Source: Hufsiella arboris
GTDB taxonomy: Bacteria; Bacteroidota; Bacteroidia; Sphingobacteriales; Sphingobacteriaceae
NCBI RefSeq assembly: GCF_009834875.1
Contig: NZ_WVHT01000002.1
Location: 558,001 to 622,000, forward strand
Length of the DNA: 64,000 nucleotides
Direction: 5' to 3'
The first letter of the stretch is position 1, and each line of letters opens with the position of its first letter. A program made the position numbers and the translations under genes. Shown in pieces: positions 5,201 through 32,078 of the stretch. Below the pieces are notes generated by a model. The model had not been told where the DNA came from. It ran no database searches and was given only the letters and a program-made list of their open reading frames with translations.

Positions 5201-5212
5201 GCAGCAATACTG

Positions 5213-5220
5213 CAAACCTA
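5213..5220 (-). promoter_or_regulatory. Bacteroidota -7 box (TAGGTTTG) before SNF2 gene
   Basis: On the minus strand TAGGTTTG matches TAnnTTTG and ends 12 bases before the ATG at 5200, so transcription would begin only a few bases from the start codon. No TTTG -33 element is found at the usual 19-21 base spacing, so this is a tentative call. Confidence 0.35.
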
Positions 5221-5395
5221 ATAAAACGGCCCTGAGTTTTAGATTATTTAAGCACAAAGAACGAAACGTTGCAAGCATTGTGCACCACATTGAAACGATA
5301 GTGGAATCGAATGACAGATTGAAAATTTACCATTGTAATAAAACCAGGCTATGAATTTCTTTCTTGATTCTGGCATTTAAAAGTTTTGTAGTTCA

Positions 5396-6265
5396 ATGAT
5401 TCAGGCTATTTTCAGAGAGGTAACACCCCTTACTAAGCACGATTGTTTTACGGTTTTTTCGCGAAGCAAGGAAAGCTTTAACTTTCCCATACACTATCAC
5501 GATGCATTGGAGCTAAACCTGATTTTAAATGCCGGCGGTTCCAAAAGGGTAGTAGGAGAACATGAGCAGGTGATTACCGACAATGAACTGGTACTGGTTG
5601 GACCTAATGTTATTCATGGATGGATGAATTGCCAGCCGGGTTTTATGAATATAAGTGAAACAACTATTCAGTTTCATCCAGACCTGCTTGGAGATAGTTT
5701 CCTAAGAAAAAATCAAATGAGGGCTATTAAACAAATGCTGGAAGATTCACAGGGCGGGATTGCCTTTCCAGAACAAACGATTAGCCGACTGGCTTCCCGA
5801 ATTATCTCGCTGAAAGAGAAAGATAATTTCGATTCCATTATCGAACTGATCTCGATACTGCACGATTTGGCAGTTGGCCATTATAAAAAACTGTCGGTGA
5901 AAACTGAGGCAGCGAAACGAAATACAAACAGTGAACTGATCGAGCAGATATTTGATTTTATGCACAATCATTTTAGGAAAAAGATCACTGTAAATGATGT
6001 AGCAGCTGCAGTTAATGTTACACCCGACTACCTGAGCAGGTTTCTGAAAATGAGCACCGGTTTTACTTTTCCGGATAACCTCAATGAAGTGCGGATCGGA
6101 CACGTTAGTCACATGCTCATCGAAACCACTCATTCAATAGCTGAAATTGCGTATGCCTGTGGATTTAATAACCTGGCCAACTTTAACAAAATTTTTCGAG
6201 TTAAAAAAAACTGCACGCCCGGGGAGTTTCGACAGCGCCATAACGGTAATCGGGTTCTTTTCTGA
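5396..6265 (+). CDS. AraC family transcriptional regulator with N-terminal cupin
   Basis: A 289-residue protein. Residues ~20-110 form a cupin-like sensor domain (FPIHYHDALELNLILNAGG, then VLVGPNVIHGW). Residues ~185-285 form a double helix-turn-helix AraC domain (ITVNDVAAAVNVTPDYLSRF, then SIAEIAYACGFNNLANFNKIF). Such proteins usually activate sugar-catabolic genes on binding a small ligand in the cupin. It lies 72 bases upstream of, and in the same direction as, the hybrid two-component regulator and the polysaccharide locus, so a role in that locus is plausible. The ligand is unknown. Confidence 0.93.
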   Translation: MIQAIFREVTPLTKHDCFTVFSRSKESFNFPIHYHDALELNLILNAGGSKRVVGEHEQVITDNELVLVGPNVIHGWMNCQPGFMNISETTIQFHPDLLGDSFLRKNQMRAIKQMLEDSQGGIAFPEQTISRLASRIISLKEKDNFDSIIELISILHDLAVGHYKKLSVKTEAAKRNTNSELIEQIFDFMHNHFRKKITVNDVAAAVNVTPDYLSRFLKMSTGFTFPDNLNEVRIGHVSHMLIETTHSIAEIAYACGFNNLANFNKIFRVKKNCTPGEFRQRHNGNRVLF

Positions 6266-6337
6266 TTTTAACGTCATTCTGTTATCTTTATAATCTCTGA
6301 CAACCAATTATCAGCCTGTATAACTTAAGGGTCAATT

Positions 6338-9300
6338 ATGCGAATCTGGCTTTCCTGTCTTGTTTTATTTATTCTGTTCTCAAAAAACCGGGCAACTGCA
6401 CAATATTCGTTTCAGCAGATCGATAACAGCGGCGGCTTATCTAACAGCTGCGTAAATAGTATCTGGAAAGATTCAGATAACCTGATATGGTTCGGTACCT
6501 GGGATGGCCTCAATTATTACGATGGTTCCAATGTTCATGTATTTAATTATGCTAAGACAGATGCCGGGAAAAATTCAATTGCCAGCAATGTCATTTACGA
6601 AATAAAAGAAGACCGGCAGCGTAATATCTGGATAGCTACGGTTGAAGGCGTTTCCCGTTTCAATAAAAATACCGGCGAGTTCAGTAATTATTTTTACAAT
6701 CCAAAGGCCGCTATATCAAATGGTTATACGATCGCCATCAACCTTCAGGGCGAAGTTTTTGCGGTTCGCCGGAACAGTAACCAGTTATTATTATTGAACC
6801 GGCAAAACAACCGCTTTGAAAAGTTTAGTATTAAAGGCCTGGAAAGATCCCTTATTTACAAAATGGTTTTTGATGATCGCGGTAATTTTTGGGTTCTGAA
6901 GGATAACGGCTTACTGGAATGCTACAACCGGATTTCAACCGGTTTTAAAAGGAACATGGCTTTCGGTGAAGTGACTGGTATCGATAACCTGATAATTTGT
7001 AACCGCAGGATTTTTTATGCAACAAAATCTGAGTTATTCCAGGTTGATGAAAATCATAGCACCAAAAGCGTTTTGAAATTACCGCATGAAGTTCGTGCGA
7101 TGGCTTACTACCAAAACAATTATATTTTAGCCTGGGCCTCAAAAGGGATCGGAGAGTATAGCAGCGATTTCAAAAAAAGCAGTTTTCTTCCAAAAGAGTA
7201 TTCGGTTCTGCAGAACGTTCGTATTGCATCGCTGATGAATGATGATGCTATGCTTTGGTTGGGCAGCGATGGCAATGGCGCAATGAAAGTAGCCAGGCGG
7301 GAAAATTATTTCGGTCTGATGAATAAGCAATCGAACGGGCAGTCGTTTCATGTTCCGGTTCGGGCATTTTGCAATGTAAACAACGATTTGTGGGTTGGAA
7401 CAAAGGGAAATGGAATTGTTACGATCAAGAATCTCGGCACACAGCACGCAACATTTTCAACGATTAAATCCTTTAAAACGGATGTCGACCTGCTTGATAA
7501 CTGCGTTTACTCGATAAAAAAAGGAAATGATGGCCTGGTTTACATCGGATCCGATGCACCTGGAGTAACACTTTACGATACGATCAAAAATCGTTTCATT
7601 AAATGGCAGGACATTCCTGAAAGTAAAAATTACGATGCGTTTGGGTCCGTGCACTGTGTTTTAACAGACGCCGATGGATCAGTGTGGATGGGGCTAAACG
7701 ACGGCGGCCTTGTTCATCTGGCTCTTAAAATTGATGGAAATCGGAAGGTTCATATTAAAAGTCTCGAGCAGTTTAAATACACCGGCGATAGCAGGGGACC
7801 GGGGAGCAATGTTATTTACAGCCTGGCGGCTGGAAGCGACGGTATTATTTGGGTAGGCTGCCGCTACGGCGGATTGAGTCGCTTTGATAAAAGCAGTAAA
7901 AGGTTTACAACCATCAAGGCTTTTTCGTATGATCAAAGCCTTTCAAACAACGACGTATTATCTTTATATCTTGATCAAAGCAACAGGCTTTGGGTTGGCA
8001 CAAGTTTCGGCTTGAACTGGGTTAATGAGGCTGACGCGTCCAAATTGGCAAGACCTGTTTTCAAGCAACTTAATACGTATAACGGACTTCCAAATAACAC
8101 CATACATGCGATCGAAGAAGACCGGGCTAAAAATATCTGGATCAGTACCAATAAAGGGCTGGCACGCGTAAATCCTTCAAACCGTAAGATCGTTCAATTC
8201 AAATTATCTGATGGTTTGCAAAGCGACGAATTCAGCGATAATGCTTCCTGGGTCGATATTTCCGGCAGGATCTTTTTCGGAGGAATTTATGGCTTTAATT
8301 ATTTTCTGCCCCAGGATGTTCATATCAGTACGGAAAAACCAAGGCTCCTGATCACTGATCTTCAGTTTGCAGGGAAATCTGCCAGCGAAAAAGGCCTCCA
8401 GGTCTTATCGGAAAACGGGCCGGTTATCAGCCAGCACTACGACCTTAATCCACAGAACAATTACTTCGAGTTAAATATAAGGCCGATAACTTACATTCAC
8501 TCACAGAAATGCCAGTACGCTTATTACCTCGAAGGAAATGATAAGGATTGGCACTTTATCGGCAATGATGAAAAGATCATCTATAACAATCTTTCGCCCG
8601 GAAATTATACTCTTAGAATAAAATGGTCGAATGGCGAAGGAGCCTGGACGAAAGATGTTCAGATATTCACTATTACTGTAAAGCAATTTTTCTGGCTTAC
8701 GCCCTTTGCATTCGCGATTTACATACTGTTTTTAGGAGCCGCAGGTTATTTATATTACCGTTACCGCCGGAATAAATTCCTTATCACGCACGAACTGAAA
8801 ATGGAACACCTGCTCCGTGAAAAGGAAGAAAATCTCCACCAGGAGCAGCTTAATTTTTTTACTAATATCGCGCACGAACTTCAAACCCCGTTAACGCTTA
8901 TTTTGGGTTCATTGGAACGATATTTATACAAGAACAAGACTTCCGTTCAGGCTAAAACCGATTACTTTTTGACTACCGTTAAACAGGAAGCTTCGCGATT
9001 ACATTACCTTGTTTTGCAGCTTCTCGAATTTCGAAAAGCAGAATCAGGTTTTCTGAAAAATCATTATTCACACCTGGATATTTCCGCGCTTACTGCCAAT
9101 ATATCAGGCCTTTTCAAACCGCTGGCACAACCGAAACAATTAAATTTTTCTACACAAATCGATTTGAGTATCAATTTGTGGATTGATAAAGACAAAATTG
9201 AAAAAGTACTTTACAACCTGCTTTCAAACGCTTTTAAGCATTCTCCGGCCGGCGAATCTGTAGTTGTCTCGGTGAAACAATTGTTGGTTGAAGACCGGAT

Positions 9301-10456
9301 TGAAATAATCGTTGCAAATTCAGGAATTCAGCTAGATGAATCTGACTTGCGAAGGCTCTTCGACCGTTTTTATGTGGTTGAAACCACTCCTGATACTAAC
9401 AAAGCGAGTTCTGGGATCGGGTTGGCGTTTACCCGGCAACTGGTGCAGTTGATGGATGGAATCATATCAGTAAGCTGTGAAAATAATTGGATTTCGTTCA
9501 GGGTATTGCTGCCGCTTACTGTATTTCCGGCAAACCACCAGCTCGTTACTGATATCGGCGATAAAACTGAAAAACCATCTTTCCTTCTTCAGTCGATAAC
9601 CAATGAGGAAGCAGCAAATAATTCAGTTCCAATAGCTGAGAATAATAAACGGGCCCTAGTTAAAAGCTTCGAACTGGAAGACAGAAAGATGATACTGGTG
9701 GTTGAAGATGAGGAAAAAATCCGTTACCTGTTGAAAGATATCCTGAGTGAACAATATATCGTTTATGAAGCTTCTACAGGGAAGGAAGCGCTTGAAATCA
9801 TCCACAGGATTGTGCCTGATATGATAATCAGCGATGTAATGATGCCCGATCTTGATGGCCTTCAGCTATGCGATATTGTAAAATCAACTCCAGCTACCTG
9901 CTACATCCCTTTTGTGATCTTGTCTGCGCGCGGAACCATTGAACAGAAAACGGAAGGTTACGAAAGCGGCGCTGACGCTTATATTCCAAAACCGTTTCAA
10001 ACAGAACACCTGCTGGTACGCGTTCAAAAATTATTGGAGTATCGCGAAAAACTTCATGCTGTATTCGCCGAAAATAGTATTTCTTCGCACCAGCTTGCCG
10101 AAGAAGATATTAATGAAAGCGATAAACATTTCATCGATAAAGTAGTAGCGCTTATCGAAGAGAATATCAACGAAGAACTTGATGGCGCGTTTCTTGAAAA
10201 TGCAATGAACCTAAGCAGAATGCAGCTTTACAGGAAGATAAAAACCTTATCTAATATGACTCCGACCGAGCTGATCCGGCATGTAAGGTTGCAAAAGAGT
10301 GCTATGTTACTCAAAACTTCCGATCTCACCGTTTCTGAAATATTCTATCGCACAGGATTTAATAACAAAACATACTTTTTCCGGGAATTCAAAAAGGTTT
10401 ACAACTGTTCACCGAATGCATACCGGGCGGCGCACCGTTTGCCGGCTCTCAATTAA
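6338..10456 (+). CDS. Hybrid two-component system sensor/regulator (HTCS)
   Basis: A 1372-residue single-chain signalling protein. Order: signal peptide (1-21); two seven-bladed Reg_prop beta-propellers with repeated IWxGT and LWVGT blades (~25-670); Y_Y_Y domain (~700-770); a transmembrane helix (~785-807, FFWLTPFAFAIYILFLGAAG). The cytoplasmic part has HisKA with H846 in IAHELQTPLTLI, HATPase with NLLSNAFKHSP and SGIGLAFTRQL, a receiver with acceptor D1166 in IISDVMMPD, and a C-terminal AraC helix-turn-helix domain. HTCS proteins sense oligosaccharides in the periplasm and switch on the adjacent polysaccharide locus. A TTAAGG ribosome-binding site precedes ATG 6338. Likely regulator of genes 10607-22285. 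Confidence 0.96.
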   Translation: MRIWLSCLVLFILFSKNRATAQYSFQQIDNSGGLSNSCVNSIWKDSDNLIWFGTWDGLNYYDGSNVHVFNYAKTDAGKNSIASNVIYEIKEDRQRNIWIATVEGVSRFNKNTGEFSNYFYNPKAAISNGYTIAINLQGEVFAVRRNSNQLLLLNRQNNRFEKFSIKGLERSLIYKMVFDDRGNFWVLKDNGLLECYNRISTGFKRNMAFGEVTGIDNLIICNRRIFYATKSELFQVDENHSTKSVLKLPHEVRAMAYYQNNYILAWASKGIGEYSSDFKKSSFLPKEYSVLQNVRIASLMNDDAMLWLGSDGNGAMKVARRENYFGLMNKQSNGQSFHVPVRAFCNVNNDLWVGTKGNGIVTIKNLGTQHATFSTIKSFKTDVDLLDNCVYSIKKGNDGLVYIGSDAPGVTLYDTIKNRFIKWQDIPESKNYDAFGSVHCVLTDADGSVWMGLNDGGLVHLALKIDGNRKVHIKSLEQFKYTGDSRGPGSNVIYSLAAGSDGIIWVGCRYGGLSRFDKSSKRFTTIKAFSYDQSLSNNDVLSLYLDQSNRLWVGTSFGLNWVNEADASKLARPVFKQLNTYNGLPNNTIHAIEEDRAKNIWISTNKGLARVNPSNRKIVQFKLSDGLQSDEFSDNASWVDISGRIFFGGIYGFNYFLPQDVHISTEKPRLLITDLQFAGKSASEKGLQVLSENGPVISQHYDLNPQNNYFELNIRPITYIHSQKCQYAYYLEGNDKDWHFIGNDEKIIYNNLSPGNYTLRIKWSNGEGAWTKDVQIFTITVKQFFWLTPFAFAIYILFLGAAGYLYYRYRRNKFLITHELKMEHLLREKEENLHQEQLNFFTNIAHELQTPLTLILGSLERYLYKNKTSVQAKTDYFLTTVKQEASRLHYLVLQLLEFRKAESGFLKNHYSHLDISALTANISGLFKPLAQPKQLNFSTQIDLSINLWIDKDKIEKVLYNLLSNAFKHSPAGESVVVSVKQLLVEDRIEIIVANSGIQLDESDLRRLFDRFYVVETTPDTNKASSGIGLAFTRQLVQLMDGIISVSCENNWISFRVLLPLTVFPANHQLVTDIGDKTEKPSFLLQSITNEEAANNSVPIAENNKRALVKSFELEDRKMILVVEDEEKIRYLLKDILSEQYIVYEASTGKEALEIIHRIVPDMIISDVMMPDLDGLQLCDIVKSTPATCYIPFVILSARGTIEQKTEGYESGADAYIPKPFQTEHLLVRVQKLLEYREKLHAVFAENSISSHQLAEEDINESDKHFIDKVVALIEENINEELDGAFLENAMNLSRMQLYRKIKTLSNMTPTELIRHVRLQKSAMLLKTSDLTVSEIFYRTGFNNKTYFFREFKKVYNCSPNAYRAAHRLPALN

Positions 10457-10606
10457 AGTCGCACTTTGACTTTAGCATAGTGAATGGTTAAGATAGTATA
10501 CGTTTTCGAGTAAACTGGCTGATATTATTGTCGGAAATAATTCCGTTGAAAAACGGGACAGATTTTAGTTGATATAGTCCTCTGCTGTTGCCTGATTAAC
10601 ATTGCT

Positions 10607-12097
10607 ATGAGAAAATTAAAACTTCTTTACCTGTTTTTATTGCTTGGCCCGATTCAATTTGTTTGTGCACAAACTCAGATCGCATCACTTAAAAAGCTTG
10701 CCGAAGCAAAAAAACTGAATGTAATTTTCATCCTTACGGACGATCACCGTTATGATTTCATTGGTTTTACCAATAAAATTTCCTGGTTAAAAACACCCAA
10801 CCTGGATCGCATGGCCAAAGAAGGTGCTTATATAAAAAACGCATTTGTTACAACTTCACTTTGTTCTCCAAGCCGCGCTTCGATTTTAACGGGCGAGTAT
10901 TCCCACGTTCATACGATCGTTGATAATATTTCACCCGAACCGGCCAACCTGGTGTTCTTTCCCCAATATCTTCAGAAAGCCGGTTATCAAACCAGTTTCT
11001 TCGGAAAATGGCATATGGGTGAAGACGATGACCGCCCGAGAAAGGGATTCGACCATTGGGAAAGTTTCCTGGGGCAGGGAGTTTACTGGAATCCGCAATT
11101 GAATATCGACGGCAAACGCATTCAATACAAGGATTCAACGTATATCACGGATTTGTTAACCGATCATGCTGTAAGCTGGCTGGAAAAAAGGGACAAGAAG
11201 AAACCTTTCTTTTTATACCTGTCGCATAAAGCCGTTCATGCGCCTGTAGAACCTGCAAAACGATTTGCAGGGATGTACAAGAACAAGCCGTATCTATTAC
11301 CGTCTACTTATTATCAAACGCTTACCGACGAATATAAATCACTCGGATGGCCTGAATGGGTGAAACAGCAACGTTATAGCTGGCATGGCGTTGATTATGC
11401 CTATCATTCCCATAAGCCGATCGAGCAATACGTTCAAAATTACTGCGAAACGCTGATGGCCGTCGACGAGAGTGTTGGAAGGGTTTTGGATTACCTGAAA
11501 CAGAATAATCTTGATCAAAACACCATGGTTATTTACATGGGGGATAACGGTTTCAGCTGGGGCGAACATGGATTAATTGATAAACGTCATTTCTACGAAG
11601 AATCAGTAAAGGTCCCTTTCCTGGTGTATTGTCCGGCCTTGTTTAAGGGTGGAGAAACGGTCACTAAAATGATTCAGAACGTCGACGTTGCCCCAACAAT
11701 TCTGGAATGCGCGGGCCTTCAAAAACCTGGTTACATGCCTGGCCAGTCGTTTATTCCGTTGTTGCAGAATAAGGAAGTTAAATGGCGCGATAAAATTTTC
11801 TACGAATATTACTGGGAATACGATTTCCCGATGACACCAACGATTTACGGCGTGCGGACGGATAAGTACAAATACATCCGCAGCTGGGGAACCTGGGATA
11901 CGCATGAACTGTACGACCTGGAAAAGGATCCCGAAGAAATGCATAACCTGATCGCAGACCCAAAATATGCCGAATTGGAAAAACAGTTAACAGGCGATCT
12001 TTTTGATTGGCTGGAGAAAACTAAAGGAATGCAGATTCCGCTCAAACGAACCATCAAACAGCCATCGGGCGATTACAGGCATCCCAACCAATACTAA
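10607..12097 (+). CDS. Secreted sulfatase (type I, formylglycine-dependent)
   Basis: A 496-residue exported arylsulfatase-fold enzyme. The signal peptide ends at VCAQ (about residue 22). The metal site begins with ILTDDHRYD (D45, D46). The signature C86-S-P-S-R90 followed by ASILTG is the site where Cys is converted to formylglycine. GKWHMG, the MGDNGFSWGEHG segment with catalytic residues, and a C-terminal YELYDLEKDPEE-like subdomain (HELYDLEKDPEEMHNL) are all present. It hydrolyses sulfate esters on carbohydrates; the position cut is unknown. An anaerobic-type sulfatase maturase would be needed in trans and is not in the window. The next gene starts two bases after the stop, so the two are cotranscribed. 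Confidence 0.94.
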   Translation: MRKLKLLYLFLLLGPIQFVCAQTQIASLKKLAEAKKLNVIFILTDDHRYDFIGFTNKISWLKTPNLDRMAKEGAYIKNAFVTTSLCSPSRASILTGEYSHVHTIVDNISPEPANLVFFPQYLQKAGYQTSFFGKWHMGEDDDRPRKGFDHWESFLGQGVYWNPQLNIDGKRIQYKDSTYITDLLTDHAVSWLEKRDKKKPFFLYLSHKAVHAPVEPAKRFAGMYKNKPYLLPSTYYQTLTDEYKSLGWPEWVKQQRYSWHGVDYAYHSHKPIEQYVQNYCETLMAVDESVGRVLDYLKQNNLDQNTMVIYMGDNGFSWGEHGLIDKRHFYEESVKVPFLVYCPALFKGGETVTKMIQNVDVAPTILECAGLQKPGYMPGQSFIPLLQNKEVKWRDKIFYEYYWEYDFPMTPTIYGVRTDKYKYIRSWGTWDTHELYDLEKDPEEMHNLIADPKYAELEKQLTGDLFDWLEKTKGMQIPLKRTIKQPSGDYRHPNQY

Positions 12098-12099
12098 TT

Positions 12100-13770
12100 A
12101 TGAGTAACCGAAGAGATTTTCTAAAGAAGGCTGGCTTTGTTGCCGCCGTTTCCGGATTACAGCAAGCGTTGCCTTTTAACACGCTGGCAGCCGAAGCGAA
12201 AACTGCCGGAGAGCCGGAAGTAAAAGCGTCATCAGATTATGCTGTTGTTGAAACCACTGACGGCAAAATTCGCGGCTATTCAAAAAATGGTGTATTTACT
12301 TTTAAAGGAATTCCATACGGAGAATCGACGGCTGGCAAAAACAGGTTCATGCCGCCGGTGAAAAAGCAAAGCTGGGATGGCGTAAAAGATGCGCTGGTGT
12401 ACGGCCCTATCTGCCCGCAAAAAGCAAATGATGGCTGGTTAGCACAGGAATACGGATTTCTTTATCAATGGATCGACGGGTATCAAAACGAAGATTGCCT
12501 TCGGTTAAATGTCTGGTCGCCAAAAATTAATGATGGTAAGAAAAGGCCTGTCATGTTCTGGATACATGGCGGTGGATTTTTCGCCGGATCAAGCCAGGAA
12601 CATCCATCGTACGAAGGTGAAAATTTGAGCCGGAAAGGCGATGTCGTCGTTGTTTCGGTGAATCACAGGCTTAATATTTTTGGATTCTTTGATTTGTCGC
12701 AATACGGTTCTCAATATAAATATTCAGGTAATGTTGGTATGCTCGACCTCGTTGCCGCGTTAGAATGGGTGCGAGACAACATTGGTCGCTTTGGCGGAGA
12801 TAAAAACAACGTCACCATTTTCGGGCAGTCCGGCGGCGGCGCAAAAGTTATTACACTGATGGCGATGCCCTCCGCAAAAGGCCTGTTTCATAAAGCGATC
12901 TCGCAAAGCAATTCCATCGTGCAGGTTTCGGTTCCCGAATATTCGCAAAGGATAACTAAACAGGTTTTGCTGGAGCTGGGACTGAACGAGAATAATATTG
13001 CTGCTCTTCACGACCTTGAAACTTCACGTTTACTTTCAGCTATCGCAGCCGCTGACAAAAAATTGGGAAGCAAAGTTCCGAAAGGGGTTGGCCGGGCGGG
13101 TTTGCAGCCAGTTGTTGATGGTGAAGTTTTGCCCGCCCATCCCTTTGATCCGGTCGCGCCGCCATTGTCGTCGGATATGCCATTTATGGTAGGAACAACT
13201 CGAAATGAAGCTTCCGCAAGTATTAATAATCCTGCTGCAGAAAACCTGGATGAAGGTGGATTGAAAAAACAGGTCAACGACCGGTTTGGCAAATCGGGCG
13301 ACGAGATTTATAAGGTTTTGCGAAAGGTTCATCGGCAGGCAAAGCCGGTTGAAATTCTATCATTCATTAGCGCTCAGAATTCAATGGCTTATTTGCAGGC
13401 AGAACGCAAATCCGCGCAACAAGCGCCGGTTTATTTATATCGTTTCGATTGGAAGACACCGGTCTTAGACGGCCGCCCGAGGTCATTCCATTGTAGTGAA
13501 ATTCCATTTGCCTTTGCAAACACCAGCAAGGCCGAAAACTATACCGGGAACAGCGACGACGCTCAGAAATTGGCAGCAAAAGTTTCGCAGGCATGGATCA
13601 ATTTTGCCCGTTCCGGAGATCCGAATCATACAGGCTTACCTGATTGGCCAGACTTTAAAGATCAGAAAGGAGCGATGATGGTCTTCGATGACCAATGCAA
13701 GGTGTCGATCGATCCTGATCACGAAGCGCGATTAATTCTTCAACGCGTTTTCTACAACAAAGACATTTGA
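12100..13770 (+). CDS. Carboxylesterase type B, Tat-type secretion signal
   Basis: A 556-residue protein. The N-terminus SNRRDFLKKAGFVAAVSG is a twin-arginine signal. The type-B carboxylesterase fold follows: GKIRGYSKNGVFTFKGIPYGE, EDCLRLNVWSP, WIHGGGFFAGSS (oxyanion hole), nucleophile S244 in FGQSGGGAKV, and a C-terminal FHCSEIPFAFAN with the catalytic His. The nucleophile elbow is GQSGG rather than the common GESAG. The family cleaves carboxylic esters. In this locus it could remove acetyl or other ester groups from the polysaccharide (inference). It lies 2 bases after the sulfatase gene and 31 bases before the next glycosidase gene. Confidence 0.9.
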   Translation: MSNRRDFLKKAGFVAAVSGLQQALPFNTLAAEAKTAGEPEVKASSDYAVVETTDGKIRGYSKNGVFTFKGIPYGESTAGKNRFMPPVKKQSWDGVKDALVYGPICPQKANDGWLAQEYGFLYQWIDGYQNEDCLRLNVWSPKINDGKKRPVMFWIHGGGFFAGSSQEHPSYEGENLSRKGDVVVVSVNHRLNIFGFFDLSQYGSQYKYSGNVGMLDLVAALEWVRDNIGRFGGDKNNVTIFGQSGGGAKVITLMAMPSAKGLFHKAISQSNSIVQVSVPEYSQRITKQVLLELGLNENNIAALHDLETSRLLSAIAAADKKLGSKVPKGVGRAGLQPVVDGEVLPAHPFDPVAPPLSSDMPFMVGTTRNEASASINNPAAENLDEGGLKKQVNDRFGKSGDEIYKVLRKVHRQAKPVEILSFISAQNSMAYLQAERKSAQQAPVYLYRFDWKTPVLDGRPRSFHCSEIPFAFANTSKAENYTGNSDDAQKLAAKVSQAWINFARSGDPNHTGLPDWPDFKDQKGAMMVFDDQCKVSIDPDHEARLILQRVFYNKDI

Positions 13771-13801
13771 TCCACACACTTAGAACTTTAATAGCTACTA
13801 G

Positions 13802-15454
13802 ATGAAAAAAAGCATCATTATCACTTCGTTATTGCTTTGTTTACAGGTAAATCTTTTCGCGCAAATCCAAAAAGTAACCTTACTCAATCTCAAACCTTCT
13901 ACATTTAAAAAGGCTGAGTTTGATATTAAATTAATCGCCGAATGGGTTAATCCATACCTGCAGGAAGATGTATCACTCGATATGCTTATAACTTCTCCAT
14001 CCGGCAAAAAACTCTTGCTGCCCTGCTATTATGAGAACGGGAAGAGCGGTAAGATGTCATTGTGGAAGGCACGTTTTGCGCCGCAGGAATCAGGCACATA
14101 TCGATACACCATTAAGCTTTTCAAGTCGGGAAAGAATGTTTCTACTACTAAGCCGGCTGCGTTCACAGCATTCCAAAATAATGGAAAAGGATTTCTGCAT
14201 GTAAAGAACAACTGGATCATGCAGTTTGATAACGGAGCACCGTTCAGGGGGATCGGTGAAAATATTTGCTGGGAATCACGGGCGAATGATGACTCAAGGT
14301 TTTACAAGGAGCTGCACGAAAATCCCAAATACAATTATGAATACATGCTTCGCTCGCTGGCAGATCATGGCGGCAATTTTTACCGCACATGGATCTGTTC
14401 ATGGAACCTGCCGCTGGATTGGAAAAGTGGGATCAACAATAATCGCTATACAAACTCAGACGAATATTTCAATCCAAGCGCCATACAACGGCTGGAGCGT
14501 GTCATGAAACTTTCGGATTCGCTGGGTGTGTACACCATGCTCACGTTAGGTCCAGGCGCTTATCTCGAAAAGGACGGCGGAAATGTAAAATCTGCGGCTG
14601 ATTTTTTTGTAAAGCCAGAGGCAAAAGCCCGTTATAAAAACCGGCTTCGCTATATCATTGCACGCTGGGGTTATAATACCTGCATCGCTAACTGGGAGCT
14701 TTTTAACGAAATCGATAACGTTCAGTTTGGTGATAAGGATAATCCGATCGACGCTTCGGTGATTGTAAAATGGCATGATGAAATGAGCACTTATATAAAG
14801 TCGATCGATCCATACAAACATCCTGTTACAACCAGTATTTCACATCGCGATTTAGCCGGTCTGAATTCACTTTCAAATATCGACATCAATCAGAAACATA
14901 TTTACAAAAACACTGATATCATCCCGGAAACGATAGTTAAATACGAAACGGAATTTAAAAAGCCGTACGTAATCGGCGAGTACGGATTTGAATGGGACTG
15001 GTCGAAGAATTTCGATGATTTTGCCAGCGACATGGACCGTGACTTCAAAAAGGGATTATGGTACGGTCTGTTTTCTCCGACGCCGGTTCTCCCGATGACA
15101 TGGTGGTGGGAATATTTTGACAACCGTAAAACAGATGTTTACATTAAAAAAGTCAGGACTATTTATGACCAGATGATCAGCGCAGGTGAAGGAAATTTCA
15201 AAACTGTAAAAGTACAAACCTCTAATCCAGGTGTACGCGTAATGGCAGTAGAATGTGGTAAGAAAATTTTTATTTACGTATTAAACAATTCATCAGAAAA
15301 ACAGGATGTAATCATTTTCATTCCGCGGCCAACGACGTCTCCCAAAGTTTTTGATTGTGAAAAAGGCACTTATCAAACTGTTCAGTCAACTGATAAAAAC
15401 ATCGCTTTGAAAGCGATTGGTCAGAACGCTGAAATCATAATTGTTGCAGATTAA
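13802..15454 (+). CDS. DUF5060-containing GH5-like glycoside hydrolase
   Basis: A 550-residue secreted protein (signal peptide to ~residue 20, VNLFAQ). Residues ~22-125 form a beta-sandwich DUF5060 domain (FKKAEFDIKL, SGTYRYTIKL). Residues ~140-470 form a clan GH-A (beta/alpha)8 barrel with probable acid/base E303 in NWELFNEID and probable nucleophile E393 in YVIGEYGFEW. A small C-terminal beta domain closes the protein. Proteins with DUF5060 plus a GH5-like barrel occur in mannan- and xylan-type loci; the exact GH family cannot be fixed by eye. Together with GH26 in the same locus, endo-mannanase or mannosidase activity is the best guess. Confidence 0.85.
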   Translation: MKKSIIITSLLLCLQVNLFAQIQKVTLLNLKPSTFKKAEFDIKLIAEWVNPYLQEDVSLDMLITSPSGKKLLLPCYYENGKSGKMSLWKARFAPQESGTYRYTIKLFKSGKNVSTTKPAAFTAFQNNGKGFLHVKNNWIMQFDNGAPFRGIGENICWESRANDDSRFYKELHENPKYNYEYMLRSLADHGGNFYRTWICSWNLPLDWKSGINNNRYTNSDEYFNPSAIQRLERVMKLSDSLGVYTMLTLGPGAYLEKDGGNVKSAADFFVKPEAKARYKNRLRYIIARWGYNTCIANWELFNEIDNVQFGDKDNPIDASVIVKWHDEMSTYIKSIDPYKHPVTTSISHRDLAGLNSLSNIDINQKHIYKNTDIIPETIVKYETEFKKPYVIGEYGFEWDWSKNFDDFASDMDRDFKKGLWYGLFSPTPVLPMTWWWEYFDNRKTDVYIKKVRTIYDQMISAGEGNFKTVKVQTSNPGVRVMAVECGKKIFIYVLNNSSEKQDVIIFIPRPTTSPKVFDCEKGTYQTVQSTDKNIALKAIGQNAEIIIVAD

Positions 15455-15595
15455 AACTTCTTTAAATTTTGAAACCGGGAAAACATCAGGGTTGGATAAA
15501 AAAGTGCCATACCTGCTTTTAAACGCGGTTTTACTTCCCGTTTTTAACATACTAAACGGTTAAAATACTATTAATATCGGGGCTCATAGCCGGGG

Positions 15596-15603
15596 TATCT
15601 TTG
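15596..15603 (+). promoter_or_regulatory. -7 box (TATCTTTG) of the susC operon
   Basis: TATCTTTG fits the TAnnTTTG consensus and lies 40 bases before the SusC ATG, inside the 189-base gap that separates the upstream enzyme genes from SusC. The -33 region is poor. A separate promoter for SusC/SusD would allow higher expression of the uptake genes. Confidence 0.5.
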
Positions 15604-15643
15604 GTTAAATCAATTATAGAATTTAATAACCAAACTATCTTTT

Positions 15644-18600
15644 ATGGGCAGAATTATTTACACGTTAGCAATGTGTATTTCGCTGGTTTGCTGCAGCTAT
15701 TTAAGCTTGCAGGCGCAGGACCGGCGAATCACCGGGGTAGTTACCGATCAGCAGGGTGTGACCTTGCCGGGTGTATCGGTAACAGTGAAAGGAACACAAA
15801 CCAAGACATCAACAGATGGAAAAGGTGTTTTTAATATCAGTGTTTCCGGAGAAAAACCGACGCTGGTATTTTCTTACGTCGGCATGCAAACCCGCGAGCT
15901 TGAAGTAGGCTCAAAACCCTCCATCCAGGTATCCATGCAAACTACTTCAAAGGACCTTAATGAGGTTGTTGTTGTAGGTTACGGAACAGTTAAAAAGGGC
16001 GATCTTACGGGTTCTGTCGCTTCTATTAAGGGAAGCGAACTGAATCGTACGCCGGCTGCATCTGTCGATCAACTTTTACAGGGCAAGATCGCCGGTGTGC
16101 AGGTGACAACTTCAGGCGGTCAACCCGGTTCGGGAGCTACCATTCGTATCCGTGGTGCGAGTTCTTTAAACGGATCGAAAGATCCTTTGGTAGTTGTTGA
16201 TGGCTATCCATGGGGTGACGCCGGAAATCTAAAGCAAATCAATCCCGAAGATATCGAATCTGTAGAAGTGCTGAAAGATGCTTCTTCTGCGGCTATCTAT
16301 GGTTCACGTGGCGCCAATGGCGTGATTGTTATAACTACGAGAAAAGGTCGCGTCGGGCAAAACCGGATTTCTGTAAGCACGCTGGATGGCGTTTCCTATC
16401 AATCAGTAAAACCTGATGTTTGGCGCGACCCGGTTGAAGAAGCGACCTATGCCAATGAAGCTGCAAAAACAGGCGGAGCAATTCCTACAGACATTCCTTA
16501 TATCGGAATCTCACGCCCGGTTGGAACAGGATACGTTTATTATCCTTCGATTGCCGAATTGCGCGGACTCGATCCAAACAAACCGCAATGGCCCACCAAT
16601 ACAAACTGGGTCGACCTGGTTTACCGCAATCCCTTAACCCAAAGCTATACCGTTACTGCAGATGGCGGTAACGATAAAACCAAATACGCCATCTCCGGGA
16701 ATTACTATAATGAACAGGGTATGGTGATCAAGAACTATTACGACAAGTACACGAGCCGTTTAAACCTCGATCAGAAACTGTCAGAATCGGTAACTGTCGG
16801 AACGAACGCGATCCTGGCGGTAACTAAAAATAACGGAAGCGGACTGGGTGTGGGCCGCTCGGTGATATTCCCGGTTTACGATGAAAACGGAAATTATTTC
16901 CGTACATCCAGTACCGATTATGGTAACCCGATCGCCCTGTCAAATCAGTTACTTAACACAACGAAAACGCTGGACATGCTGGGCAACATTTATATCGGCG
17001 CGAAGTTTACCAGCTGGCTTTCATTCCGTTCAAACCTGAATTATAAGTTTGGTAATTCAGTGCAGGATCAGTACGACCCGATTGCCAGTACACAGCGGGC
17101 GATGGATAACAAAGGAAGTTATGGCTCGATCAATAACGGGAATTATAACGACCTGTTGAGTGAAACATATCTGACTGCAAACAAAAACTTCGGTAAAAAC
17201 CATTCGCTGAATGCCGTAGCCGGGTTTTCCTACCAGGCGACGAACAATCGTTTCAGCTCATTAACCGGGCAAAACTTCGTGAACGATGTACTGACGAATG
17301 AAAACCTGGCGACAGCTGGTACGATGCTGATCGGCAACAGCCTGCAGCGTTTCGACCTGATGTCTTATTACGGACGCGTGAACTACGCATACAAAAACCG
17401 CTACCTGTTGACCTTAACCGGCCGTGCCGATGGCTCGACCAAGTTTGGTGCGAATAACAAATGGGCCTATTTCCCTTCCGGCGCCATTGCCTGGAAAGTG
17501 AATGAAGAAGAATTTATGAAGAATGTAAGCTTCATTTCCGAGTTAAAAGTACGTGCCAATTACGGTATTTCCGGAAACCAGGGTATCAGTCCGTACCAAA
17601 CCCTGGATCGCTTCGGTTCTAATAAATACTTTACCGGCGCAGGTTTTCAGACTGGTTTCGGTCCTGGACTGGCGGGTGCGAATGATGAACAGGGCCGCAC
17701 AATTGTGGAAGGTTTAGGAAACAACAGCCTGCAATGGGAAACGACCGAGCAGTTTGGTGTTGGGTTAGATTTGGGTCTGATCGATCAGCGGTTTACGCTT
17801 ACAGCTGATTACTACAATAAAAATACATCCGACCTGCTTCGCCTGAAAACGATATCTCCTTCGGCAGGCTATGATCGCCAGTGGATTAACGACGGCGAGA
17901 TCAATAATAAAGGATTTGAATTAGGCCTGAATGCGAATATCATCAGCAACGCAAAGTTAAGCTGGAACGTTGGCGGAATATTTACGATGAACCGCAATAA
18001 AGTGGTTTCGATGGGTGAGAGTAACCAGGTTCTGATCGGTACGATCTACGAGTCAGTTCGCCAGCAAATATCAACTTATACAGTTGGCCAGCCGATGTTT
18101 GCGTTTTATGGATATAAATCAGCCGGAATTATCCAAACCCTGGAAGAAGGCGTAGCCGCCGGCCTTACCGGGGCAGATGCACAACCCGGGGAAATAAAAT
18201 ACATGGACATTTCCGGACCTGACGGTAAACCCGACGGTGTGATCGATTCATATGACAGAACGATCATTGGTAATCCTAACCCGGATTTTATTTACAGCTT
18301 TAATACTAACCTCAAATTTAAAGGATTCGACCTGTCGGCACAGCTGTATGGCGTTGAAGGTAACGATGTGTGGGATTTTCAGAAAATGACGCCAAGTCGC
18401 CAGCTGCTGAGATGGACGCCGGATAATCCAAGCCAGGAGATTCCTCGCGCGAACGGTTCACGCGGTTACCGCGCATCAGATTTCTTTATCACCGACGGAT
18501 CGTTTTTAAGAATCCAGAATGTAACGCTTGGCTACAATTTCAAAACCGGGATTATTAAGGGAGTGAAGAGCCTTCGACTTTACTTATCGGGAAATAACCT

Positions 18601-18718
18601 GTACACGTTCACAAAGTTCAATCCCGGCTACGATCCGGAACTTGGTGAAATGGGAATCAATGGCGGCGCTTATCCCCGCCCGCGAAATATTTCAATCGGT
18701 TTGAACCTGGGACTATAA
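15644..18718 (+). CDS. SusC/RagA family TonB-dependent outer-membrane transporter
   Basis: A 1024-residue outer-membrane protein: signal peptide (to SLQAQ, ~residue 27), carboxypeptidase-regulatory-like domain (RRITGVVTDQQGVTLPGVSV), a TonB-box-like DLNEVVVVGYGT segment, plug domain with GASSLNGSKDPLVVVDG and SSAAIYGSRGANGVIVITT, and a 22-strand barrel ending in ISIGLNLGL. It imports oligosaccharides through the outer membrane using energy from TonB/ExbBD. SusD follows after 13 bases. It carries every landmark of the family and is of normal length. Confidence 0.97.
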   Translation: MGRIIYTLAMCISLVCCSYLSLQAQDRRITGVVTDQQGVTLPGVSVTVKGTQTKTSTDGKGVFNISVSGEKPTLVFSYVGMQTRELEVGSKPSIQVSMQTTSKDLNEVVVVGYGTVKKGDLTGSVASIKGSELNRTPAASVDQLLQGKIAGVQVTTSGGQPGSGATIRIRGASSLNGSKDPLVVVDGYPWGDAGNLKQINPEDIESVEVLKDASSAAIYGSRGANGVIVITTRKGRVGQNRISVSTLDGVSYQSVKPDVWRDPVEEATYANEAAKTGGAIPTDIPYIGISRPVGTGYVYYPSIAELRGLDPNKPQWPTNTNWVDLVYRNPLTQSYTVTADGGNDKTKYAISGNYYNEQGMVIKNYYDKYTSRLNLDQKLSESVTVGTNAILAVTKNNGSGLGVGRSVIFPVYDENGNYFRTSSTDYGNPIALSNQLLNTTKTLDMLGNIYIGAKFTSWLSFRSNLNYKFGNSVQDQYDPIASTQRAMDNKGSYGSINNGNYNDLLSETYLTANKNFGKNHSLNAVAGFSYQATNNRFSSLTGQNFVNDVLTNENLATAGTMLIGNSLQRFDLMSYYGRVNYAYKNRYLLTLTGRADGSTKFGANNKWAYFPSGAIAWKVNEEEFMKNVSFISELKVRANYGISGNQGISPYQTLDRFGSNKYFTGAGFQTGFGPGLAGANDEQGRTIVEGLGNNSLQWETTEQFGVGLDLGLIDQRFTLTADYYNKNTSDLLRLKTISPSAGYDRQWINDGEINNKGFELGLNANIISNAKLSWNVGGIFTMNRNKVVSMGESNQVLIGTIYESVRQQISTYTVGQPMFAFYGYKSAGIIQTLEEGVAAGLTGADAQPGEIKYMDISGPDGKPDGVIDSYDRTIIGNPNPDFIYSFNTNLKFKGFDLSAQLYGVEGNDVWDFQKMTPSRQLLRWTPDNPSQEIPRANGSRGYRASDFFITDGSFLRIQNVTLGYNFKTGIIKGVKSLRLYLSGNNLYTFTKFNPGYDPELGEMGINGGAYPRPRNISIGLNLGL

Positions 18719-18731
18719 TCAATTGTACATC

Positions 18732-20246
18732 ATGAATCACAAGATATTAATTAGCGGCACCTTATTAGCTTCAATTTTACTGGGGAGCTGCGCCAAACTA
18801 GAAGAAAAGCCGTACGGCTTGATCAACACAGTTACTTTTTATAAAACCGCGCAGGATGCAGAATCAGCGATCATCTACGCCTATTCCGATCTTCCGGAAG
18901 TAGGGTATTATTCCCGTGGATATTACATCGTTACAGAACTGCCAACCGAGGACCTGACCCAAAAAGGCGATGCCGGTGTAGGAAACTTCGAACTGGATGA
19001 ATTGCGGACGACTTCGACAAATTCCGACCTTGACAACATCTGGACTTACATGTATCGCGGTATTACAAGGGCGAACGCCGTCATAGTGAATGTTCCGCAA
19101 ATTTCGATGCCTGAAGCAAACAGGAATCAGATAACCGGCGAAGGATATTTCCTTCGGGCACTGCATTATTTTAACCTCGTCAGGATGTTTGGAGAAGTTC
19201 CAATACGTCAGGATGTTATCGCCGATGCAACACAGATACCTGTAGCAAAATCGTCCATCAAGGATGTTTATGATCTTATTATCAGCGATTTAAAAAATGC
19301 TGAAAATTTAATTACTGTTCCGCGAATCAGCGAAGGCCGTGCTAACAAGGTCGCAGCTCAGGCTTTACTCGCTAAAGTTTATCTTCATCTGGCATCATCG
19401 AAAGTTTCAGGATCGCCGGGCTATGAATTTGTAAGTAATGCCGACGAAATGTATGCACAGGCAAAAGCTTATGCATCAAAAGTTATCGATGGACAGAGTA
19501 CATTTACGTTCACCCAAAGTCTGCCAGATATCTGGAATACAGAAATTTATAAAAAGGCAGCCACCTCTGAGCATATTTTCGACGCGGCGGTTGATCGTAA
19601 CGGCGATCGTGAAGGAAGCTTTTCCAAATTGCCAAACATGTTTTTACCTGCTGATCGCCCGATGACGATCCTGTACGACCAGGCAAATCCCGGTAGCAAT
19701 AAAATCGATATTGGACAAGGGTGGGCGCATTTTCGCACCGAATCGGCTATTTATAACGCCTACGCTTCAACCGACAAGCGCAAAACACAATTGATCGTGT
19801 CCGAATACACAAACGGCACGAGCAAATATGTCCTGGATATAACGAGCAGCGCGCGTCCCTTTACGAGGAAATTCATCGATCCGCTGCGAATTGGTGATGC
19901 GAGCAGCTGTAACTCGCCAATCCTGAGATACTCTGATATTCTTCTTGTTTTCGCTGAAGCGGAAGGACCGACGCCTGCTGGTTATGCAGCCATTCAAAAA
20001 GTAAGAGATAGAGCTGGTTTAGGTGCACTCAATCCGTCATTAAGCGTGCAGGCTTTCCGCGATGCCGTTGTTGAAGAGCGATCATTTGAACTCGCGTTCG
20101 AAGGAAACCGGCTGTTCGATCTTCGACGCACGAAAACTATGGAGAAAGTGCTTCACGACAAGTATGGGAAAACCATTACCAGCGGCGCTTATTTCTTCCC
20201 GATACCGCAACGTGAAATTGATACAAACCCATTAATGAAACCTTAA
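18732..20246 (+). CDS. RagB/SusD family glycan-binding surface lipoprotein
   Basis: A 504-residue lipoprotein. The ATG at 18732 places a lipobox LLGSC at residues 17-21; a TTG three codons upstream is less likely. The N-terminal SusD-like region (YKTAQDAESAIIYAYSDL) contains TPR-like helices such as GEGYFLRALHYFNLVRMFGEVPI. The C-terminal RagB signature is seen in RYSDILLVFAEAE and VVEERSFELAFEGNRLFDLRR. It caps the SusC barrel and binds the polysaccharide at the cell surface. The gene directly follows SusC and precedes a smaller surface lipoprotein gene by 12 bases. Confidence 0.97.
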   Translation: MNHKILISGTLLASILLGSCAKLEEKPYGLINTVTFYKTAQDAESAIIYAYSDLPEVGYYSRGYYIVTELPTEDLTQKGDAGVGNFELDELRTTSTNSDLDNIWTYMYRGITRANAVIVNVPQISMPEANRNQITGEGYFLRALHYFNLVRMFGEVPIRQDVIADATQIPVAKSSIKDVYDLIISDLKNAENLITVPRISEGRANKVAAQALLAKVYLHLASSKVSGSPGYEFVSNADEMYAQAKAYASKVIDGQSTFTFTQSLPDIWNTEIYKKAATSEHIFDAAVDRNGDREGSFSKLPNMFLPADRPMTILYDQANPGSNKIDIGQGWAHFRTESAIYNAYASTDKRKTQLIVSEYTNGTSKYVLDITSSARPFTRKFIDPLRIGDASSCNSPILRYSDILLVFAEAEGPTPAGYAAIQKVRDRAGLGALNPSLSVQAFRDAVVEERSFELAFEGNRLFDLRRTKTMEKVLHDKYGKTITSGAYFFPIPQREIDTNPLMKP

Positions 20247-20258
20247 GATTAACCAGAA

Positions 20259-21188
20259 ATGAAATCTATAATTAACTATATCCCTGTTTTATTTCTCGCT
20301 TTGTTTTTGATGGCGGGTTGTAAAAAAGATCCATACGATGGTGTAACCAGCAACGAAAAATCCATCGAAGCATATACTCTCGGAGGCGGACTCGTGCAGG
20401 TTGGACCGGCGGTGATCGACAGAACTGCGGGAACGGTACAAGTGCGGGTGTTAATGCAGGCAAATACCGATCTGTCAAAAGTTGCAGGTAATGTGATCAG
20501 CTCTTATAAATCAACCGTTGAACCCGTTTCTGGCTCGACCGTGAATTTCAAGGCTGGAAATAACAAATCAACCTATACCGTTACGGCAGAGTCGGGAGAA
20601 AGCCGGCAATGGACGGTTGAACTGATTCCTTTCACCGAAACCCTGATCGGTTCTTACAGCATTCAAAATCTTACCGTTTTTGGTGGTACCGGACCGGAGT
20701 ACGGAGGTGGCTCAGTATTTAAGCTAAGCGATAAGGGTGGTTGGCCAGTTAGCGCGGAGCCATCAACTGAACTGGACAATAAGCTAACCTTCACTTTTAC
20801 AGGTGTAACGGCCGATGGAAGTACGTATGGCGATATAGTGAATGACGCCGGCGCCGACGGTAAATATGCCAATTTCCTATACAGCGCTAAAAATTCAATA
20901 TTCGACGTAAATAAATTTTATCGCGCGATTCCAACAGGAACCGGAAAGTGGGAGCGAAATTATACCGCCAATACCATCACCTTCACTTTTGCCGATGGCA
21001 AGAAAGTGGTTGGCACCTTTTTGGGCGCCGGAACCGAAAGCCTCGGCAATGGTAACAACAAAACTATCACCGATAATTCCTTTGCATTTACTTTGAGTTC
21101 AGCAGATGATTGGGGTAATATTTATTCGGATTACGATAAGATCGTCAGTCGTCCGCGTAAATTTTGGATTGATGTTAAGAAACAATAG
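20259..21188 (+). CDS. SusE-position surface lipoprotein (DUF5018-like)
   Basis: A 309-residue lipoprotein with lipobox FLMAGC (Cys at residue 21). Residues ~30-130 contain a beta-sandwich segment seen in DUF5018-type surface proteins (NEKSIEAYTLGGG, TVQVRVLMQANTDLSKV, STYTVTAESGESRQWTVELI). The rest is a beta-rich region of unknown fold. Lying right after SusD and before the GH26 gene, it occupies the place of SusE/SusF-type glycan-binding proteins. A carbohydrate-binding role is therefore inferred from position; no catalytic motif is visible. Confidence 0.8.
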   Translation: MKSIINYIPVLFLALFLMAGCKKDPYDGVTSNEKSIEAYTLGGGLVQVGPAVIDRTAGTVQVRVLMQANTDLSKVAGNVISSYKSTVEPVSGSTVNFKAGNNKSTYTVTAESGESRQWTVELIPFTETLIGSYSIQNLTVFGGTGPEYGGGSVFKLSDKGGWPVSAEPSTELDNKLTFTFTGVTADGSTYGDIVNDAGADGKYANFLYSAKNSIFDVNKFYRAIPTGTGKWERNYTANTITFTFADGKKVVGTFLGAGTESLGNGNNKTITDNSFAFTLSSADDWGNIYSDYDKIVSRPRKFWIDVKKQ

Positions 21189-21253
21189 TCCCGTTGCAAT
21201 TAGCGCTTTGGTTTGTTAACCGGGGCGCTTTTGCTTTCTTAATTAGTACATTT

Positions 21254-22285
21254 ATGATCAAGTCTATGTTAATACCTTCATTACTTGTCGTGCTGCTTTT
21301 TTCGGATTGCAGTAAGAGCAGTAAAACCAGCGGAGACGATAAACCCGTTACGCCGCCTAAAGAAACACCAAATACGCCTTTTAAAACCTTAAATTATCTG
21401 TATAGCATTTCTGGCGAGAAGACATTGTCAGGCATTCATAACCGCGAACCAAATGCCACGCCCGCCCGGTGGACTGACGAGATATATAACACTACCGGTA
21501 AATATCCGGCACTTTGGAGCGGAGACTTTTTATTCCAGGCCGAAAATATCAACAATCGGCAAATCATGGTTAATGAAGCGGTTACTCAATGGAAGAAAGG
21601 TGCGGTCATTAATATTATGTGGCATGCCTGCAACCCTGCTTTATCTCAGCCCTGTGGCTGGGACGATGGAAAAGGCGTTCTAAGCTCATTAACTGACCAG
21701 CAATTTACCGAATTGACCACCGACGGAACCGCCATTAACGCCAAATGGAAGGGTATGATGGATGAAGTTTGCCTGTATTTGCAGCAGTTAAAAGACAAGG
21801 GAGTAGAAGTATTGTGGCGCCCGATGCACGAAATGAACCAGGGAAAATTCTGGTGGGCCGGCCGCCCGGGCGCAAGCGGAACGGTTAAGCTTTGGAAACT
21901 GACGCACGATTATATGGTGAAAACCAAAGGATTGACGAACCTGATCTGGGTTTGGGATGTGCAGGATTTCAGTACTTTAAGCAATGATGTTAAAAGTTAC
22001 TATCCTGGTGATGATTACTACGATGTGGCTGCGCTGGATGTTTACGATGGCAGCGGATTCACACAGGCTAAATATATGGCAATGGTTAATATTGCCGGAA
22101 AAAAGCCGATCGCGATTGGCGAGTGCGACAAACTTCCTACCGAGGAAGAACTTACTTATCAGCCAAAGTGGACGTTCTTCATGAGCTGGTCGGAGTTGGT
22201 GTTTGAAAAGAATACTAAAGAACAGCTTATCAAGCTTTACGGGTCTCCGAAGGTACAATCGCTGGATAAAATGCCTGGCTGGTGA
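21254..22285 (+). CDS. GH26 family glycoside hydrolase (beta-mannanase type), lipoprotein-like
   Basis: A 343-residue protein from ATG 21254 (a TTG 20 codons upstream is unlikely). The signal sequence ends with SDC; the lipobox is weak because Asp sits at -1. The GH26 barrel is clear: KTLSGIHNRE, ALWSGDF, INIMWHACNP, acid/base E193 in LWRPMHEMN, W-rich substrate cleft FWWAGRPG, and nucleophile E290 in IAIGECD. The family cleaves internal beta-1,4-mannosidic bonds; a few members act on other beta-glucans. It is the last gene of the SusC operon and the strongest hint that the substrate is a mannan. Confidence 0.92.
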   Translation: MIKSMLIPSLLVVLLFSDCSKSSKTSGDDKPVTPPKETPNTPFKTLNYLYSISGEKTLSGIHNREPNATPARWTDEIYNTTGKYPALWSGDFLFQAENINNRQIMVNEAVTQWKKGAVINIMWHACNPALSQPCGWDDGKGVLSSLTDQQFTELTTDGTAINAKWKGMMDEVCLYLQQLKDKGVEVLWRPMHEMNQGKFWWAGRPGASGTVKLWKLTHDYMVKTKGLTNLIWVWDVQDFSTLSNDVKSYYPGDDYYDVAALDVYDGSGFTQAKYMAMVNIAGKKPIAIGECDKLPTEEELTYQPKWTFFMSWSELVFEKNTKEQLIKLYGSPKVQSLDKMPGW

Positions 22286-25948: not shown

Positions 25949-26155
25949 TTTATAAGTTTTGTTTGAAAAAATCGATGGAAGTTGATCCTCCACAGCTTTA
26001 CAAACTTAATTATATCCCGGGTTCTGAGCCAGGCTAGGATCTAAATTTCACTATTATTCTCAAATTGGATTCCTTACAGTCGCTAACGTTTTTAATCAAA
26101 AAAAAATTTAATTTACAACCTCGCTTTGTTCGAACCAACTAACCAATATTTTATA

Positions 26156-32077: not shown

Positions 32078-32078
32078 A

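Follow-up and report, generated by a model that had tools for sequence, protein, structure and literature searches.

A block of nine genes in the genome of Hufsiella arboris (4.8 Mb, 56 contigs) very probably encodes the outer module of a system that utilizes beta-(1->4)-mannan, a cell-wall polysaccharide of plants and algae; a sulfatase gene has been recruited into this block. The block occupies positions 5396 to 22285 of a 64,000-nucleotide stretch of contig NZ_WVHT01000002.1 (forward-strand positions 558,001 to 622,000), hereafter called the window. In order, its genes encode an AraC-type regulator, a hybrid two-component system (HTCS) regulator, an S1 sulfatase, a carboxylesterase, a DUF5060 protein, SusC, SusD, a surface lipoprotein, and a GH26 enzyme. 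An earlier note, made from the sequence alone, had described this set as one directional block, and the coordinates, Pfam matches, and TIGR04056 match bear this out, with every gene on the plus strand (Table 1). Such an arrangement of nine genes is far beyond chance. The SusC and SusD genes stand in tandem, 4 bp apart, and are linked to regulators (HTCS, AraC) and glycan-active enzymes (GH26, DUF5060, sulfatase, esterase), as is characteristic of a polysaccharide utilization locus (PUL). Our verdict is that the beta-mannan locus in the window is of an ordinary kind, apart from the sulfatase that it has recruited.

Evidence for a beta-Mannan Backbone

A mannan backbone is supported by the GH26 gene, by the match of the modeled DUF5060 protein to a mannanase, and by the co-occurrence of the core genes with GH130 and epimerase genes in other loci. 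The same evidence upholds the proposal of the earlier note that the enzymes are of mannan type. The GH26 protein carries the motifs RPMHE and IGE, and its best match among solved structures is GH26A from Muricauda (6q75, 199 bits), followed by beta-mannanases.

Pfam names only the N-terminal domain of the DUF5060 protein. A structure of the whole protein was predicted from an alignment of 24 sequences, with a mean pLDDT of 87. Its top five matches are entries for ManDH5, a beta-mannanase from Dictyoglomus thermophilum (best 9gpg; Z 35.6-35.9, root-mean-square deviation 3.2 A over 494-495 residues). Next, at Z of about 28, come mainly GH5 mannanases and GH164 beta-mannosidases. Sequence profile searches recover 9gmj at an E value of 2e-74 and GH5 mannanases at 1e-6 to 1e-8. 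ManDH5, which we know from the titles of entries 9gpg and 9gmj, resembles the window protein in joining DUF5060 to a GH5-like barrel and in its fold over 495 residues, but it is an enzyme of a thermophile and shares only 24-25% identity. Residues E303 and E393 are invariant across the 24 aligned rows, and the motifs FNE and GEYG are present. DUF5060 followed by a predicted GH-A barrel with two putative catalytic glutamates would make this a ManDH5-like GH5 enzyme, and the GH5-like character suggested previously is consistent with both the fold and the profile matches. The locus is therefore predicted to contain the mannanase-type enzymes, GH26 or GH5, that are found in beta-mannan PULs.

The surface lipoprotein has an N-terminal domain matching 3hbz (Z 13.3) and chain 8aa2_G of the levan utilisome (Z 12.2, 1.7 A over 84 residues). 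Its C-terminal half is beta-rich and gives only weak beta-barrel matches (Z < 8).

The Core Genes Recur Across Bacteroidota without the Sulfatase

A scan for GH26 genes yielded 67 loci, taken with flanks of up to 10 kb per side. Forty-two of these carry SusC and SusD of the window's type and form the core set; the other 25, some truncated and including L061 and L077, were excluded from the core counts. Proteins from the core loci were clustered at 35% identity and 60% length with a minimum of 180 amino acids, and one representative names each family. Besides SusC and SusD, which are present in 42/42 by selection, the core loci carry GH26 (42/42), the lipoprotein (39/42), DUF5060 (28/42), a GlcNAc-2-epimerase family protein (27/42), GH130 (23/42), an AraC regulator (21/42), a member of one of three esterase clusters (15/42), an MFS transporter (13/42), and an HTCS (9/42). 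The series SusC-SusD-lipoprotein-GH26, often with DUF5060, recurs in this way across Bacteroidota alongside GH130 and epimerase genes.

Nine Mucilaginibacter GH26 loci hold an HTCS that is 59-65% identical to the window's. In one locus, from Mucilaginibacter sp. SMC90 (L038), the genes for SusC, SusD, lipoprotein, GH26, DUF5060, AraC, and HTCS are consecutive, uninterrupted by any sulfatase or esterase gene. The locus in the window resembles this set in a different order, plus a sulfatase-esterase pair.

The sulfatase is not conserved with the mannan core. A phmmer search with eight sulfatase queries found no S1 sulfatase in the 42 core loci, flanks of up to 10 kb included, and none in 20 DUF5060-centered loci (10 of these coincide in part with core loci). 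Among all 67 GH26 loci, two contain a sulfatase (L061 and L077, one each), and both sulfatases are of types other than the window's. In L077 (positions 2667-7943), a contig from an uncultured member of Bacteroidia, the sulfatase gene overlaps the GH26 gene by 4 bp and a GH2 gene follows; this GH26 is 53% identical to that of the window.

Several points weigh against assigning the block to a beta-mannan system of the ordinary kind. Genes for GH130 and epimerase, which are frequent although not universal in beta-mannan PULs, were not found by Pfam in 5396-22285, and both families are present elsewhere in the genome. The window's DUF5060 protein is 42-47% identical to 19 of its 23 homologues from GH26 loci and 50-60% identical to the other four, and is, to judge from these identities, not the commonest form. 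GH26A from Muricauda is inactive on commercial mannans and active solely on bloom material (PMC9860051; here and below, papers are cited for the parts of their text that were accessible), which makes the exact substrate of the window GH26 uncertain. A loop of GH26A covers subsite +2, and its specificity is described as narrow and partly unresolved (PMC9860051). Given this loop and the inactivity on commercial mannans, we did not adopt the view that the window GH26 is certainly endo-acting. Finally, the sulfatase gene lies 2 bp upstream of the esterase gene, which makes a purely incidental presence in the locus unlikely.

The Esterase

The esterase carries the serine motif GQSGGG, and orthologues with 64-70% identity (E up to 1e-160) were found in 3 of 300 other genomes of the family. 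In one of these genomes (G296), the orthologue, a GH30 gene, a further carboxylesterase gene, and a DUF5060 gene whose product is 60% identical to the window's form a single run. A second genome (G185) encodes both a sulfatase 74% identical and an esterase 64% identical to those of the window, and the esterase gene lies near GH30 and SusC/D genes. Because the two genes are on separate contigs, G185 does not support the idea that the sulfatase-esterase pair is conserved elsewhere; its sulfatase gene terminates an 8.5 kb contig, which places the downstream neighbor out of reach.

Esterases of the CE7 and CE25 types are known from beta-mannan loci (PMC13276840). The part of the earlier proposal that invoked an esterified mannan is plausible, since esterases are common in the core loci.

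An Unlinked Module May Complete the Pathway

A second set of genes, L183:7157-12432 on contig C45, encodes an AraC regulator 50% identical to that of the window and a GH26 that differs from the window's in type (28% identity), together with a sodium:solute symporter and a GH130 sharing 71% identity with the GH130 of core locus L029. An epimerase-family gene is located at C12:159353. The C45 module, which is not linked to the window, likely supplies the inner half of the pathway for mannan, and the related AraC genes suggest that the two modules may be under joint control.

The proposed pathway can be outlined as follows. AraC and HTCS would switch the locus on, the GH26 and ManDH5-like DUF5060 enzymes would cut mannan, and the esterase would take off acyl, probably acetyl, groups. 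SusC, SusD, and the surface lipoprotein, placed by prediction at the cell envelope, would bind and import the oligosaccharides, and the C45 module and the epimerase-family gene product would turn manno-oligosaccharides into sugar phosphates. The sulfatase is a lineage-specific addition. Its gene is probably transcribed together with its neighbors, and the enzyme probably acts on some kind of sulfated chain that accompanies mannan.

A few kb from the C45 GH26/GH130 module lies a separate, sulfatase-rich locus (L182:6345-19898 and L183:409-3663) with SusC/SusD-like genes recognized by eye, four S1 sulfatase genes, and a gene for a DUF1254/DUF1214 protein. We considered whether these neighbors together form a sulfated-mannan locus and rejected this candidate, given that minus-strand genes, NUDIX and LemA among them, intervene.

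The Sulfatase and Its Relatives

The sulfatase looks catalytically intact. It has the C-x-P-S-R signature and catalytic motifs of S1 (formylglycine) sulfatases, namely DDH (residue 45), CSPSR (86), GKWH (133), SHKAVH, GDNG (312), and DKR (325), and the genome holds candidate formylglycine-generating enzymes. Its nearest solved chains are 7p24, 9s03, 7ebp, 9s8y, and 5g2v, with 7lha and 7lj2 also near. Two of these, 5G2V and 7LJ2, are members of subfamily S1_11, whose substrates are glucosamine-6-sulfate, 6-sulfated porphyran oligosaccharides, and, as a recent addition, mannose-6-sulfate (PMC13063451). Chains of the S1_11 type rank with the closest PDB matches of the window sulfatase, but their alignments with it break between query residues 237-261 and 272-274. 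The DKR motif is common to the window sulfatase and S1_11, where its D and R presumably contact the sugar. Specificity for O6 is a fair guess at best.

The sulfatase belongs to a sharply bounded group whose members score from 892 bits (the nearest) to 555, plus 541 for an interrupted gene in L129, whereas the next protein scores 291 bits. Members of the group have in common W[VL]xxQRxS[WY]HG together with CSPSR, in place of which that lower-scoring protein carries CGPSR. In a tree from which the interrupted gene was left out, 25 rows of the group, the window's included, share W[VL]xxQRxS[WY]HG and are set apart from the CGPSR row by a long branch.

Among 301 genomes of the family, homologues with at least 52% identity account for 40 rows, not counting the window's own and two additional fragments of a single gene. 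Wide flanks were taken for 20 of these 40 rows and for five new homologues among 395 genomes of the class (E up to 1e-140), which gives 25 neighborhoods. GH26, DUF5060, and the lipoprotein occur in none of the 25, two of which (L127 and L140) end at contig edges; a distant esterase match (31 and 35% identity, 121 residues) occurs in two. Matches to DUF5060 occur in 26 other genomes of the family (in three, weak and partial), and five of these genomes also hold a sulfatase of at least 52% identity, always on another contig.

The five members of the window's own clade reside in five different neighborhoods. One of these is the mannan locus described here, and in the other four the sulfatase gene is found amid cyclopropane-synthase-type genes and a gluconate-type permease gene (L126), with SusC/D and another sulfatase (L127), with GH29 and sulfatases (L128), or with GH9 and an esterase (L171). 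Elsewhere in the group, the homologue in L129 adjoins GH78, GH3, and GH39. This close homologue (L129:9306-10793, genome G235) is broken by a stop, which indicates that the gene is sometimes lost. In L139, L143, and L175, a sulfatase of the group, GH3, and a PF10091 enzyme lie together, and a gene for an esterase-like alpha/beta-hydrolase is near (on the opposite strand in L143); this arrangement is possibly a sulfated-glucan locus type. Because the neighborhoods are so varied, the gene family appears to move between glycan loci and is no mannan marker.

What Might the Sulfatase Act On?

The earlier note went further and suggested a sulfated and/or esterified mannan as the substrate. In its full form, this proposal holds that the locus was built for a sulfated (probably C6-sulfated), esterified beta-mannan, and that desulfation lets the GH26 and DUF5060 enzymes cut, which we regard as unlikely. 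The close packing of the sulfatase and esterase genes, the presence of every S1 motif sought, and the formylglycine-generating enzyme candidates are all consistent with a working sulfatase in the locus, and the kinship with S1_11, which includes activity on 6-sulfate substrates such as mannose-6-sulfate (PMC13063451), would suit such a role. Moreover, Codium holds sulfated 4-linked beta-mannans, with sulfate at C2 and less at C6 (PMC7550628), and L077 provides an independent case in which a different S1 sulfatase gene overlaps a related GH26 gene. However, the comparative data do not favor this proposal, since S1 sulfatases are absent from every core and DUF5060-centered locus and mannan genes are absent from all 25 sulfatase-homologue neighborhoods. 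Thus, the words "sulfated mannan" rest on one gene. A figure legend in PMC6298971 also carries the prediction that beta-mannan PULs from the North Sea are non-sulfated. A bolder version would make this the first described beta-(1->4)-mannan PUL for C6-sulfated, esterified beta-mannan, with an uncharacterized S1 subfamily (marked by W[VL]xxQRxS[WY]HG) that removes mannose 6-sulfate and with L077 as an independent second solution; we consider this decidedly unlikely.

It is conceivable, although rather doubtful, that the sulfatase serves some other glycan, such as a sulfated glucan, a galactan, or a fucose-containing chain, and was inserted under the mannan regulator. The varied company kept by its homologues, which ranges from cyclopropane-synthase-type genes to SusC/D with a sulfatase, GH29, GH78/GH3/GH39, GH9 with an esterase, and GH3 with PF10091, fits this explanation. 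In contrast, the same-strand packing with the esterase and DUF5060 genes (2 and 31 bp) does not, and neither does the GC content at third codon positions (GC3), which resembles that of the neighboring genes (0.471 versus 0.42-0.51). It is very improbable that the whole locus targets a non-mannan beta-glycan through a shift in specificity of the GH26 and DUF5060 enzymes. Endoglucanase H belongs to GH26 as well, and the narrow specificity of GH26A leaves some room for such a shift, but mannanases are the best matches of both enzymes, and of the 42 core loci, 23 contain GH130 and 27 an epimerase gene. For these reasons, and because GH26A and mannanases score best, a glucanase locus was rejected as the principal interpretation. 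A beta-mannan locus with a recruited sulfatase accounts best for these observations.

Relation to Known Systems

The MAR_2010_75 PUL (PMC9860051) resembles the window locus in targeting beta-mannan, in having SusC/D pairs (PMC6298971), and in encoding GH26A, the enzyme of solved structure to which the window GH26 is most closely related. It differs in carrying several GH26 genes, GH5_26, GH27, and GH130 within the PUL, and the main text of PMC9860051 mentions neither sulfatase nor sulfate; the window locus, in contrast, has a sulfatase, and its genome encodes GH130 elsewhere. The mannan locus of Bacteroides cellulosilyticus (PMC13276840) likewise combines GH26, SusC/D, and an esterase, while the genes for an epimerase and a further esterase lie outside it. 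However, its esterases are of the CE7 and CE25 types rather than type-B, GH130 lies inside the locus, and the accessible text lists no sulfatase. The Polaribacter PUL for C6-sulfated alpha-1,3-mannan is a mannan locus with sulfatases, one of which, PbSulf2, belongs to S1_11, but its substrate has an alpha-linked backbone, its enzymes include GH92 and GH195, and GH26 goes unmentioned in the accessible text (PMC13063451).

Beta-mannan loci are well described, and a sulfatase inside one is the unusual part. Provisionally, a literature search whose full texts were only partly covered returned no description of a beta-mannan PUL with a sulfatase. If the enzyme does desulfate mannan, it would link mannan degraders to the sulfated mannans of green algae, and a recurrent group of Bacteroidota sulfatases would gain an activity. 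Otherwise, the locus exemplifies how PULs acquire unrelated accessory enzymes.

Gene Layout and Flanking Features

The intergenic distances from AraC through GH26 are, in order, 72, 150, 2, 31, 189, 4, 12, and 5 bp. The 150 bp gap upstream of the sulfatase gene and the 189 bp gap upstream of SusC suggest at least two transcription units, one comprising sulfatase-esterase-DUF5060 and the other SusC-SusD-lipoprotein-GH26. A search for Bacteroidetes-type promoters gave a single match, TATCTTTG at 15596 upstream of SusC, that is too weak for use, and none upstream of AraC, HTCS, or the sulfatase gene. The window has zero Rfam matches at gathering scores. The GH26 gene is annotated from a TTG at 21194, and the signal peptide suggests that the true start is an ATG at about 21254.

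Table 1. Genes of the putative mannan utilization block and the features on which their assignments are based
Product	Position	Strand	Basis
AraC-type regulator	5396..6265	+	Pfam HTH_18 1.1e-20
HTCS	6338..10456	+	Pfam Reg_prop, Y_Y_Y, HisKA, HATPase_c, Response_reg, HTH_18
S1 sulfatase	10607..12097	+	Pfam Sulfatase 2.4e-58 and SGSH_C; signal-peptide-like N-terminus
Carboxylesterase (type-B), candidate glycan deacylase	12100..13770	+	COesterase 3.1e-104; twin-arginine-like leader
DUF5060 with clan GH-A barrel, putative ManDH5-like beta-mannanase or mannosidase	13802..15454	+	DUF5060 3.3e-10
SusC-type TonB-dependent glycan importer	15644..18718	+	TIGR04056 1.1e-253, 844.9 bits
SusD-type glycan-binding lipoprotein	18723..20246	+	SusD_RagB 1.1e-25; start likely about 18732
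Surface lipoprotein, candidate glycan-binding protein	20259..21188	+	No Pfam match
GH26 lipoprotein, beta-mannanase family	21194..22285	+	Glyco_hydro_26 1.6e-39

The block is flanked by minus-strand genes, with an SNF2-type helicase gene upstream (1820-5290) and a topoisomerase III gene downstream (22763-24601). Farther downstream, a GH97 gene at 36676-38658 scores above the NCBIfam cut-off for "retaining alpha-galactosidase," and its product could serve galactomannan side chains. The gene at 26126-27826 encodes a protein with a twin-arginine-like leader that has no Pfam or NCBIfam match and gives a marginal phmmer match to an alpha-galactosidase (E 0.00098). Between them, at 30944-33215, a gene for UDP-galactopyranose mutase adjoins a glycosyltransferase gene whose match to TuaH is below cut-off; the two genes lie on the minus strand.

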